Positions 2,472 to 39,901 of a stretch of 39,901 nt of DNA are shown piece by piece. The position numbers were made by a program, and so were the translations under genes. Within the stretch, counting starts at the first letter, position 1. The number at the start of each line of letters is the position of its first letter. The notes under the pieces were generated by a model, which worked only from the letters and a program-made list of their open reading frames with translations, searched no databases and was not told the DNA's origin. The DNA comes from an uncultured Ignavibacteria bacterium (GTDB taxonomy: Bacteria; Bacteroidota; Ignavibacteria; Kapaibacteriales; Kapaibacteriaceae): assembly GCA_937870915.1 (NCBI GenBank), contig CALMZQ010000195.1, positions 1 to 39,901 of the forward strand. The letters run 5' to 3'.

Positions 2472-4461
<1,990 letters not shown>

Positions 4462-6041: not shown

Positions 6042-6073
6042 GTAACTCCGTAACTCTGTAACTCCTTAACTGA
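6042..6073. repeat. Short GTAACTCC/T array upstream of thiolase
   Basis: Three perfect 8-mers (gtaactcc 6042-6049, gtaactct 6050-6057, gtaactcc 6058-6065) are followed by a degenerate copy (ttaactga). They use the same unit as the ten-copy array at 20490-20569. They lie 10 bases upstream of the thiolase start codon, in the predicted 5' leader. Confidence 0.9.
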
Positions 6074-7325: not shown

Positions 7326-8705
7326 ATGAAGACGATTACGTTGATCGAAGGTGATGGGATTGGCCCAGAGATCTGTGAAAGTGTTGTTGCGGTCTTTGCA
7401 GCAGCCAAGGTTCCCGTTACATGGGAAAAGGCCATCGCAGGCTTGGAAGCGATTGAGAAGTTCGGGAATGGTGTGCCCCCTGAAACATTAGAGAGTATCA
7501 CCCGGAACAAGATCGCGTTGAAGGGACCTACAACAACACCTGTGGGTGGTGGGCATAAGAGTGTGAACGTCACGATCCGTAAGGGGCTTGAGCTATATGC
7601 AAACGTTCGTCTTGCAAAGTCGATGCCTGCCGTGGAGACGCGGTTCGACGGAGTGGATATCCTGATTATTCGTGAGAATGTTGAAGACACGTATGCCGGC
7701 ATCGAGCATTTTCAAACACCAAACGTTGCCCAGTGTTTGAAACTGATCACACGGCAGGGGTCAATGGCTGCAATTCGGTATGCATTTGAGGAGGCACGTA
7801 AGCTTGGACGGAAGAAGGTAACGTGTGTTCATAAAGCGAACATTCATAAGATAACAGACGGGTTGTTCCTCGAAGTATTCCGTCAGGTTGCTGCCGAATA
7901 CACGGATATTGAAGCCAACGACATCATCGTGGACAACTGCTGTATGCAGCTTGTGTCGCGCCCAGAACAGTTCGATGTACTTGTACTTCCAAATCTCTAC
8001 GGAGACATTGTCTCGGACCTGTGTGCCGGTATCGTTGGTGGACTTGGTGTTGCACCGGGTGGCAACATCGGGAAAAATTGTGCAGTGTTCGAAGCTGTGC
8101 ATGGTTCTGCACCGGATATTGCAGGAAAGGGGCTGGCCAATCCAACAGCGATCCTTCTTTCCAGTGTCCAGATGTTGCAATACATGGGTCACGTTGGGCA
8201 TGCAGAAATGATCCAGGACGCACTCACAGCAACGTTGGCTTCGGGAATTAAAACGCGTGACCTGGGCGGAACAGCATCAACGAAGGAATTCACTGAGGCC
8301 ATCATTGCCCGACTTCATCCTAATCACGATGTAGACCTCACACCTGTTATTATGGCAGTTCCTGCATTTCACGCACCTGAAGTGATAACAGAAGACTGGA
8401 CTTTGCATGGGGCGGATGTGTTTGTGGAGCATAAGGATGGCTTACCGGATATGCCGCAATCTGTTGGACCATTTACACTTCGGATGCTATCAAATCGTGG
8501 TACAAAGGTGTGGCCCGGTCCAACGCCCGATATCCTCCTCGTGGATCACTACCGCTGTAGGTACATTGCCAACGGACCTGTTACACGTCAGGACGTAGTT
8601 GCATTGCTTTACGAGGTCACTGCACAGGGCAAGGTATGGTGCCATGTGGAACTTCTCAATGAGGCTTCTGGTCAGGCTAGATACTCTAAAGCGCAGGGTG
8701 AATGA
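7326..8705 (+). CDS. icd: Isocitrate dehydrogenase, predicted NAD-dependent, with C-terminal extra domain
   Basis: This enzyme oxidatively decarboxylates isocitrate to 2-oxoglutarate in the TCA cycle. The 459-residue protein has the isocitrate/isopropylmalate dehydrogenase core at about 1-335 (EGDGIGPEI start; substrate loop around S79 in HKSVNVTIRK; Y123; K170; metal Asps D203, D227, D231). A C-terminal domain of about 120 residues resembles that of Thermus/Rickettsia-type IDH. At the cofactor-specificity site the sequence reads HGSAPDIAGKG: D264 and I265 replace the Lys-Tyr pair of NADP-dependent E. coli IDH, which predicts NAD+ use. The start has a good ribosome-binding site (gagga, 5 bases before ATG). 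Its stop overlaps the next gene's start (ATGA), implying coupled translation with the TamB-like gene. Confidence 0.92.
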   Translation: MKTITLIEGDGIGPEICESVVAVFAAAKVPVTWEKAIAGLEAIEKFGNGVPPETLESITRNKIALKGPTTTPVGGGHKSVNVTIRKGLELYANVRLAKSMPAVETRFDGVDILIIRENVEDTYAGIEHFQTPNVAQCLKLITRQGSMAAIRYAFEEARKLGRKKVTCVHKANIHKITDGLFLEVFRQVAAEYTDIEANDIIVDNCCMQLVSRPEQFDVLVLPNLYGDIVSDLCAGIVGGLGVAPGGNIGKNCAVFEAVHGSAPDIAGKGLANPTAILLSSVQMLQYMGHVGHAEMIQDALTATLASGIKTRDLGGTASTKEFTEAIIARLHPNHDVDLTPVIMAVPAFHAPEVITEDWTLHGADVFVEHKDGLPDMPQSVGPFTLRMLSNRGTKVWPGPTPDILLVDHYRCRYIANGPVTRQDVVALLYEVTAQGKVWCHVELLNEASGQARYSKAQGE

Positions 8706-13324: not shown

Positions 13325-13412
13325 CTAGAATGTTGAGAATGTTAGATTGTTAGATTGTTAGAGTGCTGCTTTCGTCTAGCACTCTAGCACTCTAGCACTC
13401 TAACAATCTAAC
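13325..13412. terminator. 8-bp-repeat inverted array, likely bidirectional terminator
   Basis: Bases 13349-13367 and 13394-13412 form a perfect 19-base inverted repeat. Both arms are made of 8-base tandem units: gttagatt, gttagatt, gttagagt on the left, and agcactct three times then taacaatc on the right. The loop is 26 bases. It lies between the convergent TamB-like gene and acyl-CoA dehydrogenase, and the right arm contains the dehydrogenase stop codon (13408-13410). No T-run is obvious, but position and stem strength suggest transcription termination for both strands. Confidence 0.75.
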
Positions 13413-17919: not shown

Positions 17920-19374
17920 ATGGAAGATCTGCTTCTCGGTGCGTACTTTCTTTCTCTTTGTGTCCTCTTCGCCTTTGGTCTGCATGGCCTGGTGATGATC
18001 TACTACTATCACAAGACACAGAAAGTCACGCACGAAGCCCCGACTCATTCTCGGGAAGACCTGCCTATCGTCACCATTCAACTCCCGTTCTATAACGAGT
18101 TGTATGTGGTAGACCGTCTTGTTGAGGCCGTTTGCCTTATAGACTATCCAAAGGACAAGCTCGAGATCCAGCTTCTCGACGATTCCACGGATGAGACCGT
18201 TGATCTCTCGCTTGCCCTTGTAGAGCGATTCCGCATGGAAGGCTTTGATATCAAGCATATTCACCGAACGAATCGTCAAGGCTATAAGGCGGGCGCACTC
18301 AAAGAGGGCCTTGCAATGGCTCGTGGAGAATTCGTTGCCATCTTCGATGCGGACTTCGTGCCACATCCGGACTTCCTTATCAAGACCGTCCCGTATTTCG
18401 CCGATGATAAGGTTGGCATGGTTCAAACACGCTGGGAGCATCTCAACGAGGACTACTCATTCCTTACTCGAGCACAAGCACTTGCTCTTGATGGTCACTT
18501 TGTGATCGAACAACAGATCCGTCACAAGGCAGGCTTCTTCATCAACTTCAACGGCACAGCCGGCGTGTGGCGCAAAAAGACCATCGAAGATGCTGGAAAC
18601 TGGCACAGCGATACACTGGCCGAAGATCTCGACCTTTCGTACCGTGCTCAACTTCGCGGCTGGCGCTTTGTGTTCTTGAATGATGTTACGTCGCCTGCAG
18701 AACTTCCTGCAGATATCAATTCCCTCAAAACCCAACAGTTCCGTTGGACGAAAGGGGCTGTTGAAACGGCAAAGAAACTTCTTCCTTCTGTATGGAAGAG
18801 CGGACTCTCCGTCAAGCACAAGCTTGAATGCACGGTCCACCTTACGAGTAACATCGTCTTCCCGTTCATCATGCTGGTTGCCTTCCTCAATGTACCGATC
18901 GTGATCATCAAGAACGAAGTTGGCGGATACGACGCGTTCTTCAGCTTCATGTCCATCTTCGTCCTCGCAAGCATTTCGTCGTTCTTGTTCTATATGTACG
19001 CGCAGCGTGCCATCCACCTCGATTGGCAGCGTAGACTCCTTCTCTTCCCGGTCTTCATGGCTGGATCGATGGGACTAGCCGTAAACAACACTCGTGCGGT
19101 GTTCGAAGCGATTATCGGTAAGAAGACGGAATTCAAGCGGACACCGAAGTACGCCATCGAACAGAACAATGATCAATGGAAGAAGAAGCGTTATGTGCAG
19201 AGGAAGATCGGCTGGATCGTGATGGTAGAACTTGGTCTCGCAGCCTACTTCGTCTTTGGTATCGTAACGTCTATTAGCTATCTCGAGATCGCGGCAATTC
19301 CATTCCAACTCATGTTCCTCATCGGCTTCGGAACCGTTGGCACTCTCTCTTTGCGCCACGCACTCGGTCGCTAA
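17920..19374 (+). CDS. Membrane processive glycosyltransferase, family 2 (cellulose-synthase-like)
   Basis: This 484-residue inner-membrane enzyme is of the BcsA/CslA-type family 2, which extends and often exports beta-linked glycans. A membrane helix at about 6-30 precedes the catalytic domain. All processive motifs are visible: D87-D88 in LLDDSTDE, DAD at 143-145, E235-D236 in TLAEDLDLSYR, and QxxRW at 272-276 (QQFRW). At least four C-terminal helices follow (about 305-480). The start at ATG 17920 is preferred because it begins just before the first helix; a GTG at 17863 overlapping the lptE stop (GTGA) is the alternative and adds 19 polar residues. There is no PilZ domain or bcs gene nearby, so the product could be a mannan, glucomannan or other glycan. 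A terminator follows. Confidence 0.9.
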   Translation: MEDLLLGAYFLSLCVLFAFGLHGLVMIYYYHKTQKVTHEAPTHSREDLPIVTIQLPFYNELYVVDRLVEAVCLIDYPKDKLEIQLLDDSTDETVDLSLALVERFRMEGFDIKHIHRTNRQGYKAGALKEGLAMARGEFVAIFDADFVPHPDFLIKTVPYFADDKVGMVQTRWEHLNEDYSFLTRAQALALDGHFVIEQQIRHKAGFFINFNGTAGVWRKKTIEDAGNWHSDTLAEDLDLSYRAQLRGWRFVFLNDVTSPAELPADINSLKTQQFRWTKGAVETAKKLLPSVWKSGLSVKHKLECTVHLTSNIVFPFIMLVAFLNVPIVIIKNEVGGYDAFFSFMSIFVLASISSFLFYMYAQRAIHLDWQRRLLLFPVFMAGSMGLAVNNTRAVFEAIIGKKTEFKRTPKYAIEQNNDQWKKKRYVQRKIGWIVMVELGLAAYFVFGIVTSISYLEIAAIPFQLMFLIGFGTVGTLSLRHALGR

Positions 19375-19397
19375 TCTCGCTCCTCAAGCAATAACCC

Positions 19398-19433
19398 AAC
19401 AGAAGGTTGAGCCTCGGCTCGACCTTCTGTTTT
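19398..19433 (+). terminator. Rho-independent terminator after family 2 glycosyltransferase
   Basis: A 15-base-pair stem (arms 19398-19412 and 19417-19431, one G-T pair) with a ctcg tetraloop is followed by a short T-run. It lies 23 bases after the glycosyltransferase stop and ends the metallo-hydrolase/lptE/glycosyltransferase transcript. Confidence 0.88.
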
Positions 19434-19445
19434 AACTTGTGCATT

Positions 19446-19491
19446 GTAACCTTGTAACCCCGAATCCCCGTAACTATGAAACTCGTAACAT
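19446..19491. repeat. Degenerate GTAAC 8-bp periodic stretch across the FAH gene start
   Basis: GTAAC or close variants recur at 19446, 19454, 19462 (gaatc), 19470, 19478 (gaaac) and 19485, mostly at 8-base spacing. The start codon of the FAH-family gene (19476-19478) lies inside this stretch. The unit resembles the GTAACTC array at 20490-20569. It may be a decayed array or partly coincidence. Confidence 0.5.
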
Positions 19492-20471
19492 ATCTCTCGA
19501 ATGCCACTGAACGCACTGGTGTGATCGTTGGTGATCGTATCATGGATCTAGAACGTGCTCATGCTATTTCCAAAGGTGTGGCACTGCAATGTTCCGCATT
19601 GCCTGCAGAGATGAATGCCTTCCTTCGCCTTGGACAATTAGCACTCTCTGACGTTCAGTCACTGATCTCCTGGTTCTCAATGGCAGAGTCATCGGAACAA
19701 CAAGGAGTTTCGGTGCCGGTAGAAGGGACAAAGCTCTGTGCCCCTGTACCACATCCCACATCGATGCGCGACGGATATGCCTTCCGCCAGCACGTTGAAG
19801 CTGCACGACGAAACCGAGGCGTTGACATGATTCCGGAGTTTGATGAGATTCCTATCTTCTATTTCACTAACCACCAAGCCGTGTTCGGTCCGGGAGATAT
19901 CCAAGTGCAAGAACTGCACTGCGATAAACTTGACTTTGAACTTGAATGTGCGATTGTAATAGGGAAGCAAGGTCGTAACATCAAGGCATCGGAAGCAGAC
20001 TCGTACATCGCCGGTCTTATGGTGATGAATGACTGGAGCGCTCGCACGCTTCAGATGAAGGAGATGATGCTTAACCTTGGTCCGGCAAAGGGTAAGGACT
20101 TCGCAACATCGATTGGCCCTTGGCTTGTTACATTGGATGAACTTGCCGACACAATAACATCAACTCCAAATGGCAATCAGTATGACCTTGCCATGTCAAC
20201 CCACGTCAATGGCACACTCGTTTCAACAGGAAACGTGAAGGACATGTCGTGGACGTTTGCACAGATCATTGAACGTGCTAGCTATGGAGTTACGCTTTAT
20301 CCAGGAGATGTGATAGGTAGCGGTACTTGCGGCACAGGCTGCTTTCTCGAACTTAATGGCTCTAAGGTATTCGATCCAGCATGGTGGCTCAAACCCGGAG
20401 ACGTTGTCACGTGTACGATCGATAGGCTGGGAGAGTTGACGAATGAAGTTACTCTAGTTACTAGTTACTAG
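19476..20471 (+). CDS. Fumarylacetoacetate hydrolase (FAH) family protein
   Basis: This 331-residue protein belongs to the FAH superfamily, whose members cleave C-C bonds of beta-diketo acids or decarboxylate/isomerise oxo-acids with a bound Mg2+. The C-terminal catalytic domain spans about 100-330. Metal-binding acids are visible in the FELECAIVIGKQGRNI segment (E-x-E) and the later Asp in MVMNDWSAR. The conserved KGKDFATSIGPWLVT and YPGDVIGSGTCGTGCF segments follow. The N-terminal domain (MKLVTYLSN, GDRIMDLERAH) is of the usual bacterial type. The substrate is not assignable; catechol or tyrosine degradation or acylpyruvate hydrolysis are options. The last residues (VTLVTSY) and the stop codon are encoded inside a TAGTTAC tandem repeat, so the C-terminal tail appears to have been shaped by repeat expansion. 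Confidence 0.88.
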   Translation: MKLVTYLSNATERTGVIVGDRIMDLERAHAISKGVALQCSALPAEMNAFLRLGQLALSDVQSLISWFSMAESSEQQGVSVPVEGTKLCAPVPHPTSMRDGYAFRQHVEAARRNRGVDMIPEFDEIPIFYFTNHQAVFGPGDIQVQELHCDKLDFELECAIVIGKQGRNIKASEADSYIAGLMVMNDWSARTLQMKEMMLNLGPAKGKDFATSIGPWLVTLDELADTITSTPNGNQYDLAMSTHVNGTLVSTGNVKDMSWTFAQIIERASYGVTLYPGDVIGSGTCGTGCFLELNGSKVFDPAWWLKPGDVVTCTIDRLGELTNEVTLVTSY

Positions 20472-20569
20472 TTACTAGTTACTAGTTACGTAACTCCGTA
20501 ACTCTGTAACTCTGTAACTCCGTAACTCTGTAACTCCGTAACTCCGTAACTCCGTAACTCCGTAACTCA
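20455..20569. repeat. TAGTTAC x5 / GTAACTC[CT] x10 inverted tandem array
   Basis: Five perfect copies of the 7-mer tagttac (20455-20489) are followed directly by ten copies of an 8-mer gtaactc plus c or t (20490-20569; the last copy ends in a). The two blocks share reverse-complementary cores (agttac/gtaact) and meet at 20489/20490, so the region can fold back on itself. It lies between two convergent genes: it contains the FAH stop codon (20469-20471) and ends 4 bases before the other gene's stop (20574-20576). It probably acts as a bidirectional transcription barrier; this is inference. Confidence 0.95.
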
Positions 20570-20573
20570 ACTG

Positions 20574-21947
20574 CTACTTCTCCACAACGAACAATGCTGT
20601 TCTGAAACGACGTTCAGAGCCCCACGTAAGGAGATATTGCCCGGTGGGCATGGATGCAGTGGAGATGCGGCACTCGTGCGGATCTTGAATCACGCCATGG
20701 CTAACTGTGCTGCCCTGCATAGAGTAGATGGTCCATGTAGCGTGATCATCTGCCGGATCGAGATCGCGTACGATGAGTTCATTGTCGGTAACAGTGCAAT
20801 TGAGTGTTGCATGCGACGCAGGGACAAGTGTTTCCGTAACGGATGTTGCTTCGTCAAAGATGAACGTACCCGTTTCCGCGGCCATATAGACCTTGTTGGT
20901 TGTTGGGTTTATGTGAAGTGACCATACGTTGCGTATGGTGTCTTCGCGTTCATTCACCCCCCAAGGAATATCGTCGAAACGTTGCCAAGACTCACCGCCG
21001 TTGGATGACCGATAAACAAGGCCATCGCCGATGATCAGCGTAGGCAGATTGCTTGTACGAAAGCCACCGATAAAGATGTCGTCCTTTCCATCTGCACCAT
21101 CGCGAACGGCAACAGACCACAAACTTGTATCCGAGAATGCGATTCTATCCCACGTGGCCCCGCCATCGACTGTTTTAAGAAGTCCACCATTGTCTCGAAT
21201 CGAGTCAGGCGCAGTGATGGCAACTACTGCATATCCGGTTGTTGGCACTCTACGCGAGAATACGATCTTTGGAATCTCTGCGTCACCGCTTATGGAAAGT
21301 TCTCCATTAAGAACCGGAACCCTACGCCAAGTTTTGCCATAATCGTCCGAGCGTGCCATAACGCCCCCTCTACAACCAACGAACAATATGTTGTTGCTGT
21401 CGGAACGTTGTGCGATAGTGCACAATCGCGTTGTGAATGTTGATGGGATTACCGAGATGCTATCCCATGTAGCACCGTTGTCGTGGCTTTTCCAGATACC
21501 GTTATTGGTGGTTCCACGTGCACCATAAAACGTACCCGGGAATTGAGTGTCCTCTATCAGAGCTTCCGCGATAAAATACATCCGAGCTCTCGCCGGACTC
21601 GAGTCTGTGAGAACACGGGCCCAAGTTACCCCGGCGTCCGAAGTTCTGCGTATACCATCGAATCCAAAGCCCCCTAGAATCAGCATATTTGAATCGAGGT
21701 TCGACCTAACACCGGATGTGATGAAATTCAACACATCAATACTTCCAATCTCAACAAGCTCCCATGAAGCGCCACCATCAAACGACCGATACATTTGGTT
21801 AGCCCAGTTTCCGGCCCAGATCGACTGAGTATTCTGAGCGTTAAAGAGGATCGTAAATGTCAGTTTTGGATTGAGGAGCTTCCAGCTCTGCCCAAACACA
21901 GGGATTACAGACCAGAACACAACAACAAGAGTGAGAAGCTTTTTCAT
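20574..21947 (-). CDS. Secreted Asp-box (BNR) repeat protein with sorting-domain-like C-terminus
   Basis: This 457-residue exported protein starts with a signal peptide (MKKLLTLVVVFWSVIPVFGQS, cleavage near 20). At least six Asp-box motifs of the type S-x-D-x-G-x-T-W follow: SFDGGASW, TSDAGVTW, SHDNGATW, SDDYGKTW, TVDGGATW and SSNGGESW. They predict a beta-propeller of the sortilin/Ycf48/BNR type. The last 85 residues (WTIYSMQGSTVSHG, MPTGQYLLTW, TALFVVEK) resemble a type IX secretion sorting domain. There are no sialidase catalytic residues to support a hydrolase call, so the function is unknown; cell-surface binding is likely. It is the second gene of a pair with a paralogue 18 bases upstream. 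Confidence 0.85.
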   Translation of the reverse strand: MKKLLTLVVVFWSVIPVFGQSWKLLNPKLTFTILFNAQNTQSIWAGNWANQMYRSFDGGASWELVEIGSIDVLNFITSGVRSNLDSNMLILGGFGFDGIRRTSDAGVTWARVLTDSSPARARMYFIAEALIEDTQFPGTFYGARGTTNNGIWKSHDNGATWDSISVIPSTFTTRLCTIAQRSDSNNILFVGCRGGVMARSDDYGKTWRRVPVLNGELSISGDAEIPKIVFSRRVPTTGYAVVAITAPDSIRDNGGLLKTVDGGATWDRIAFSDTSLWSVAVRDGADGKDDIFIGGFRTSNLPTLIIGDGLVYRSSNGGESWQRFDDIPWGVNEREDTIRNVWSLHINPTTNKVYMAAETGTFIFDEATSVTETLVPASHATLNCTVTDNELIVRDLDPADDHATWTIYSMQGSTVSHGVIQDPHECRISTASMPTGQYLLTWGSERRFRTALFVVEK

Positions 21948-39814: not shown

Positions 39815-39901
39815 AGTTACACAGTTACACAGTTACACAGTTACACAGTTACACAGTTACACAGTTACACAGTTACACAGTTACACAGTTACACAGTTAC
39901 A
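39815..39901. repeat. AGTTACAC 8-bp tandem array at window end
   Basis: Ten full copies of agttacac plus a partial copy (agttaca) run from 39815 to the window edge, so total length is unknown. The reverse complement, gtgtaact, belongs to the same GTAACT family as the arrays at 6042 and 20490. It starts 10 bases after the pdxH stop codon. Confidence 0.97.

Follow-up and report, generated by a model that had tools for sequence, protein, structure and literature searches.

At the stop codon of a fumarylacetoacetate hydrolase-family gene (FAH) of an uncultured Ignavibacteria bacterium lies a two-block inverted array, which is most likely a lineage-specific, slippage-grown pair of tandem arrays with a candidate effect on transcript ends. 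The block belongs to a genome-wide set of hypervariable tandem arrays with 7/8-bp units, which would grow out of short seeds beside genes, probably by replication slippage. At this junction, which in most relatives spans only a few base pairs, one array per stop codon would have grown toward the other until the space was filled, and transcripts of either strand are predicted to form a long imperfect hairpin. If it has any effect, this would most likely be on the two facing transcripts, whose read-through it may impede or stop or whose 3' ends it may protect, in a manner other than that of a classical U-tract terminator. We hold this account as a whole with moderate confidence. The DNA analysed, referred to here as the window, is a stretch of 39,901 nucleotides (CALMZQ010000195.1) forming one contig of a 3.32-Mb genome.

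The two-block array at the FAH stop codon

The original prediction described five TAGTTAC 7-mers set against ten 8-mers with a complementary core, and this arrangement was confirmed letter by letter (Table 1). Exact TAGTTAC units start at 20455, 20462, 20469, 20476 and 20483 (n = 5). Adjoining them without a spacer is GTAACTCN, repeated at 8-bp spacing from 20490 to 20562 (n = 10); the eighth base is C or T in nine of these units, and the tenth unit reads GTAACTCA. The longest match runs were 29 at period 7 and 31 at period 8; when the whole window was base-shuffled 50 times, they reached no more than 11 and 10. Written in repeats, as had been proposed, are also the FAH tail V-T-L-V-T-S-Y and its stop codon, the TAG at 20469 in the third 7-mer; the first V-T of this tail is encoded by a related GTTACTC just 5' of the exact units. 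The TAA of the 8-mers does close all three plus-strand frames within three copies, but this property, which had been singled out, is shared by the 7-mer block, whose TAGs at 20455, 20462 and 20469 already cover all three plus frames.

Table 1 Features of the window around and beyond the FAH junction.
Feature	Coordinates	Strand	Remarks
Third two-block inverted array, flanked by two minus-strand genes	3960..4046	.	GAACAGC / GCTGTTC
Lone GTAACTC[C/T] array in a divergent gap	6042..6071	+	ends 11 bp before thiolase start
Second two-block inverted array, convergent genes	13326..13410	.	TAGAATGT / TCTAGCAC
U-tract hairpin between upstream glycosyltransferase gene and FAH	19399..19433	+	own scan; similar hairpin in G003
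GTAAC x4 reaching and overlapping FAH start	19446..19490	+	sister species: GTAACCCC x12.6 here
Fumarylacetoacetate hydrolase-family gene (FAH)	19476..20471	+	Pfam FAA_hydrolase; tail VTLVTSY in repeat DNA
Left block, L-type (AGTTAC orientation)	20455..20489	+	five TAGTTAC; FAH stop inside third copy
Right block, R-type (complementary core, 8-bp unit)	20490..20569	+	ten GTAACTC[C/T/A]
BNR/sortilin-like facing gene	20574..21947	-	Pfam Sortilin-Vps10 + BNR repeats
AGTTACAC x10.9 past last gene	39815..39901	+	contig end inside array

Folding of the block from either strand was borne out by RNA folding of positions 20440–20580, which gave strong predicted structures for the plus strand (−39.8 kcal/mol, z = −5.2) and the minus strand (−51.6 kcal/mol, z = −6.0), neither of which was matched in stability by any of 200 shuffles. 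The predicted stem is built from AGTTAC paired with GTAACT, with small internal loops where a one-base linker faces a two-base one. Because these linkers interrupt the stem, an inverted-repeat search at default seed finds no inverted pair at the block.

Rho-independent terminators consist of a G+C-rich hairpin and a U-tract after the stop codon and are usable from both strands between convergent genes. The block resembles them in being a predicted hairpin after a stop codon between convergent genes, and is unlike them in having no U-tract, an interrupted stem and no counterpart at the orthologous junction in six relatives. The sequence contains no T-run after the block. A scan of 19300–20700 returned 0 terminator-like sites (1.0 in shuffles), the same scan also missing the hairpin at 19399, and an Rfam covariance search of 20300–20700 returned 0 matches at E up to 1. 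The ordinary U-tract type of hairpin does exist in the window, just 5' of FAH.

Arrays across the genome and their polarity at gene edges

Four 7/8-bp families recur throughout the genome. Three-copy pattern matches number 371 for GTAAC (184 + 187), 112 for GTGCTA (36 + 76), 221 for GTCAT (90 + 131) and 147 for AGCGAAY (75 + 72), totals that count pattern matches and not arrays, a long array yielding several; reversed-pattern controls gave 0 matches in the whole genome. Arrays were sampled in 759 kb, comprising 50 of 61 stretches (the window and 60 more, from which 11 mostly-N stretches were dropped), part of which was picked for containing arrays. In this sample, exact 5-mer runs of at least four copies occur 47 times at step 7, 43 times at step 8, three times at step 12 and once at step 13, and none occurs at steps 5, 6, 9, 10 or 11. 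Intergenic are 95 of the 97 merged arrays, and across the families conserved cores are joined by free 1–2 bp linkers. Both ends of the contig itself are perfect tandem arrays, of GGATGGGACGTA x6.4 (1–77) and AGTTACAC x10.9 (39815–39901), which suggests that the assembly breaks at arrays and that copy numbers are underestimated.

Chains of cores were found 113 times in the sample and 2 times on reversed sequence. The 96 chains lying in gaps between two called genes are used in the tallies below; the remaining 17 were found within called genes or where a stretch ends, and the left arm of the second two-block array was too degenerate for this census. Gene edges were set by a simple codon-score caller made for the analysis, not by annotation. 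The orientations AGTTAC, ATGAC, GAAYAG and GTGCTA are referred to here as L and their complements as R; the label of family F2 (GTGCTA) was flipped after its pair order was known, and those of F1, F3 and F4 stand as first written.

Within 30 bp of a gene edge, L points inward in 55 cases and R in 6 (n = 61), whereas further off the counts are 6:9 (p = 1e-4), this comparison omitting 20 of the 96 chains, which lie about equally near both edges. Start codons account for 17 of the 61 edge-near arrays, at a ratio of 17:0, and stop codons show 38:6. The same polarity is seen in three relatives (G009, G003 and G001), with L inward in 18 of 19 arrays near edges and in 7 of 10 further away, 8 of 37 arrays being left out (6 unclassified, 2 at contig ends). 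The sister-species cores were widened after the units were known, and some stretches were chosen for GTAAC matches; this result is therefore a replication and not a blind test. Period 7 or 8 also prevails in the samples of G009, G003, G001 and G011, with one step-12 run in G003.

Arrays at stops often open with the stop codon itself, as C-TAGTTAC, TGATGAC or TGAAYAG, and TAG terminates 19 of the 39 genes that have an array no more than 3 bp from the stop, compared with 102 of 541 (p = 5e-5). Apparently unrelated proteins encoded in four sampled stretches (L124, L125, L133 and L142) have NSE or ANSE as their C-terminus, the final codons and the stop being provided by GAATAGC arrays.

These signals at codons bear on a neutral reading, in which slippage arrays are junk tolerated in gaps, the polarity is what translation signals have left, stop-carrying units surviving at stops and ATG or GTG units being purged before starts, and hairpins are a by-product of two edges sharing one polarity. 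The confinement of polarity to the outermost 30 bp and the excess of TAG stops agree with it, as does the behaviour of F3 and F4 units, which are often stop-free in one orientation and whose polarity at stops is the stronger (27:6 against 21:14, p = 0.06). It is harder to reconcile with the F1 7-mers, which stand at 14:2 at stop edges though the avoided orientation carries TAA, and with paired arrays, whose sharing of families and partner-specific complementarity exceed permutation. On balance we consider neutral accumulation possible but doubtful.

Wherever neighbouring arrays are opposed, L precedes R (20 of 20 pairs); six more neighbours share an orientation. Both arrays belong to one family in 14 of the 20 opposed pairs, with 8.9 expected (p = 0.005), and the duplex energy of the arms beats that of permuted partners (p = 0.001 and 0.002). 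Under the slippage account, the arms would be complementary because one edge polarity governs both arrays. In the six cross-family pairs, complementarity is no greater than in other combinations, and mixed-family pairs were for this reason rejected as hidden hairpins. Most array-bearing gaps hold a lone array, and lone arrays also follow the polarity (25 of 36 at edges). Nor do they look like pairs that lost a partner, as the 47 lone arrays searched are accompanied by 3 partner cores against 3.5 expected under a plain base-shuffle control. Pairing is therefore not what makes arrays polar at gene edges; polarity stands as an independent property, with pairing superimposed on it.

Predicted structure follows pairing. 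Among the 59 of 70 array-bearing gaps that were folded (up to 330 nt, 25 shuffles each), gaps with paired arrays (n = 18) have a median z of −5.5/−6.5, with 16 of 18 below −3 on a strand, and gaps with lone arrays (n = 41) a median z of 0.1/0.2, with 8 of 41 below −3. For control gaps (60 of 179) the median z is −0.7/−0.9, and 11 of 60 fall below −3.

Orthologous gaps and a possible role at transcript ends

FAH is present in 11 of 11 genus members searched, its relatives being found in MAGs named Candidatus Kapaibacterium, Ignavibacteria or Bacteroidetes, of which G003 is the nearest. The stops of FAH and the facing gene are 102 bp apart in this genome (G000). Six array-free relatives have stop-to-stop gaps of 3, −4, 7, 6, 6 and 22 bp, and the distances are 31, 60 and 98 bp in G008, G005 and G009, where 7-mer arrays of other units (GTACTGG, GAGACRA) come after the FAH stop; distances refer to 9 of 10 relatives, as no facing gene was found in the G006 locus. 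Beside the 7-mer array, the enlarged gaps of G005 and G009 (L194 and L192) hold a palindrome without a U-tract. In G003 the stop-to-stop gap is 3 bp, and it is directly before the FAH start that this relative carries GTAACCCC x12.6. That most relatives compared at the FAH junction are without an array counts against our preferred account. Sampled stretches of G007, G014 and G012 (103, 20 and 40 kb) contain no arrays.

Eleven orthologous gaps were compared side by side. At three of them the opposed arrangement is kept in G003 (window 13325, L141 15980 and L142 477) with changed copy number and linkers; one of these pairs is divergent and one co-directional, and at window 13325 G003 has no more than a short inverted repeat of F2. 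Two gaps retain a lone R-type array ahead of a start (window 19375 in G003, L075 8516 in G009), and the family has changed at one, L141 19077, with a lone F1 array here and an opposed F3 pair in G003. The relative is array-free at four gaps (window 20472 in G003, L124 17667 in G009, L129 10611 and 2294 in G007). Evidence for a seed comes from L129 2294, where array-free G007 has a single CCGTAAC at the site of GTAAC x3 in G000. At the last gap, L135 8651, one gene only was matched and the gap yields nothing firm. Distribution, period, polarity and lineage-specific presence of the arrays are observed here, and growth by slippage is the probable process proposed behind them.

Among gaps of at least 30 bp, arrays occupy 21 of 41 convergent, 40 of 176 co-directional and 9 of 73 divergent ones in a sample partly picked for arrays; in the unpicked subset the counts are 5 of 11, 9 of 68 and 5 of 28, which is not significant (convergent against divergent, p = 0.11). 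U-tract terminator-like sites were found by our own scan in 1 of 21 convergent gaps with an array and 8 of 20 without (p = 0.009), the array-free gaps including far longer ones; among convergent gaps of up to 200 bp, the counts are 1 of 19 and 4 of 9 (p = 0.026). No such contrast appears among co-directional gaps, where 6 of 40 with an array and 14 of 136 without have a U-tract site. Short array-filled gaps offer little room for a second terminator, and the scarcity of U-tracts fits either arrays that replace terminators or arrays that grew at places in no need of one, such as the FAH junction.

The first of these options would make opposed arrays a selected bidirectional terminator or mRNA-end hairpin, standing in for U-tract terminators at convergent junctions and with the complementarity of the arms kept by selection. 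Such a role would account for the strong predicted folds on both strands, the paucity of U-tract sites in array-bearing convergent gaps, the retention of an opposed pair in G003 at 3 of 11 gaps while copy number and linkers changed, a complementarity of arms above that of permuted partners, and the U-tract-free palindromes of G005 and G009, whose FAH gaps are enlarged. It sits poorly with a FAH junction that is array-free in six relatives, with an orthologous convergent gap that holds a pair in G003 and a lone array in G000, with kept pairs of which one is divergent and one co-directional, and with lone arrays that are not structured and a block that has no U-tract. Selection for termination is an unlikely explanation of the system.

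For the block itself, the proposal of a bidirectional terminator has stood in part: the folds and the convergent-gap pattern favour it, and the missing U-tract, the presence of arrays at start codons as well and the six array-free relatives do not. Termination is a plausible candidate role for opposed pairs. A universal one was rejected, as U-tract hairpins are present in the genome and lone arrays are structured no more than controls; termination cannot be the general reason for the arrays. More speculative, and in our judgement improbable, is a self-renewing hairpin system. In it a polar 7/8-bp array would grow by slippage at each gene edge, the complementary core would persist although arms differ in unit length and linker, one family would take over from another at the same junction, and the product would act as a bidirectional transcript end that needs no U-tract.

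Relation to known short repeats

The closest published counterparts of the slippage-grown arrays proposed here are the GGGAATC and GGGGA(C/T)T heptamer repeats of Xanthomonas and Nostoc (Rehm et al. 2015, PMC4692102). In the excerpted text of that paper, heptamers lie in sense orientation less than 50 bp after stops and in antisense less than 50 bp before starts, two Xanthomonas genomes hold 70 and 75 inverted pairs in convergent orientation, and between sister species array length differs but arrays usually stay single or stay paired. They are discussed there as quadruplexes, transcripts starting or stopping more often at quadruplex-forming than at control copies. As in that heptamer type, many arrays of about 7 bp are found here genome-wide and mostly between genes, with the same polarity, overlap with stops, inward-facing inverted pairs and few arrays between divergent genes (PMC4692102, as excerpted).

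Unlike the G-tracts and quadruplexes central to the excerpted account of Xanthomonas and Nostoc, the units AGTTACN, AATGACN and GAAYAGN are mostly without G-tracts. At 20455–20569 no unit contains GGG or CCC, the G-tracts of three or more per unit that mark quadruplex heptamers being absent, and some GTAACCCC units elsewhere do carry G-tracts. As most units have none, the array architecture does not need quadruplexes. Further differences from the repeats as excerpted are the four families, the mixture of 7- and 8-bp units and the change of family at an orthologous site; half of the step runs here are 8-mers, a unit length that the published systems, as far as their excerpted texts go, do not stress.

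A second counterpart are the TAACTGA direct repeats of Beggiatoaceae, some Cyanobacteria and Bacteroidetes (MacGregor 2015, PMC4679880). As excerpted, these are in forward orientation, the largest class ending 1 nt before starts; F. litoralis has a reverse set right after a stop, and the Guaymas genome holds one family in two to six copies with a single inverted case. TAACTGA and GTAACTC have the letters TAACT in common and both are intergenic. Unlike the repeats in that excerpted account, opposed pairs are common here and many arrays follow stops. For the TAACTGA repeats near starts, binding sites for a nucleic-acid-binding protein have been proposed. Conserved cores with free 1–2 bp linkers and arrays ending at start codons would suit such a function here as well; a genome with four distinct cores, an orthologous site occupied by more than one family and sister species with units of their own would not, and we regard it as a very improbable origin of the arrays.

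REPs are recognized by a palindrome with a GTAG or CGTC tag and by repeat copies on both sides of a RAYT gene. In the portion of Di Nocera et al. 2013 (PMC3733652) available as text, they are described as 20–40 bp palindromes with one super-family linked to RAYTs. The arrays are like them in being dispersed extragenic hairpins, often opposed and mostly in convergent or co-directional gaps, and unlike them in having tandem arrays as arms; no transposase link was found. On a REP-like reading, mobile palindromes would have been spread by a Y1 (RAYT-type) transposase and their arms would have become tandem arrays later. The genome does contain two Y1_Tnp genes, and intergenic, opposed and often gene-downstream positions recall REPs as the excerpt portrays them (PMC3733652). 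About 3 kb at the two Y1_Tnp loci, however, has scattered single cores and no array of the four families, which gives no support to a RAYT link, and the absence of a fixed unit length, of partner traces at lone arrays, and the single-copy unit in place in G007 likewise disfavour mobile palindromes, making this origin highly unlikely. Around one Y1_Tnp gene, a 28-bp repeat (CCGGGAGAGTAAGGCTCCCGACG...) forms three clusters (L145:1110–1240, 1952–2114 and 2841–2895) and may be the own repeat of that transposase.

The Kapabacteria arrays belong with the Xanthomonas/Nostoc and Beggiatoaceae heptamers, a known but unexplained kind. No earlier description of such arrays in Kapabacteria was found in the literature searched, which included few subscription papers. 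What sets them apart is the lack of G-tracts in most units, the coexistence of several families with 8-mers, and the frequency of opposed pairs. In the excerpted literature, arrays of Xanthomonas, Nostoc and Beggiatoaceae have so far been discussed separately, in terms of quadruplexes and of a post-transcriptional regulator. The same edge geometry in another lineage, with units mostly free of G-tracts and with several families and octamers in a single genome, points to a cause independent of quadruplexes and of any single sequence. If the self-renewing reading were true, the polarity shared with the G-rich Xanthomonas and Nostoc repeats would amount to a general, quadruplex-independent rule, which would concern how such arrays start or survive at codons. 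Array-rich members and members array-free in their sampled part occur in one genus, which makes array birth, turnover and the possible terminator role testable. Nested opposed 7-mer arrays are also present on a deltaproteobacterial MAG contig, JACPFM010000029.1 (L035:3029–3313 and 8300–8585), with GTCGTCA/CTGACGA around GGTCGAA/TCGACCT, and TCAGTCG/CGACTGA, as units; opposed heptamer arrays therefore recur outside the Kapabacteria group.
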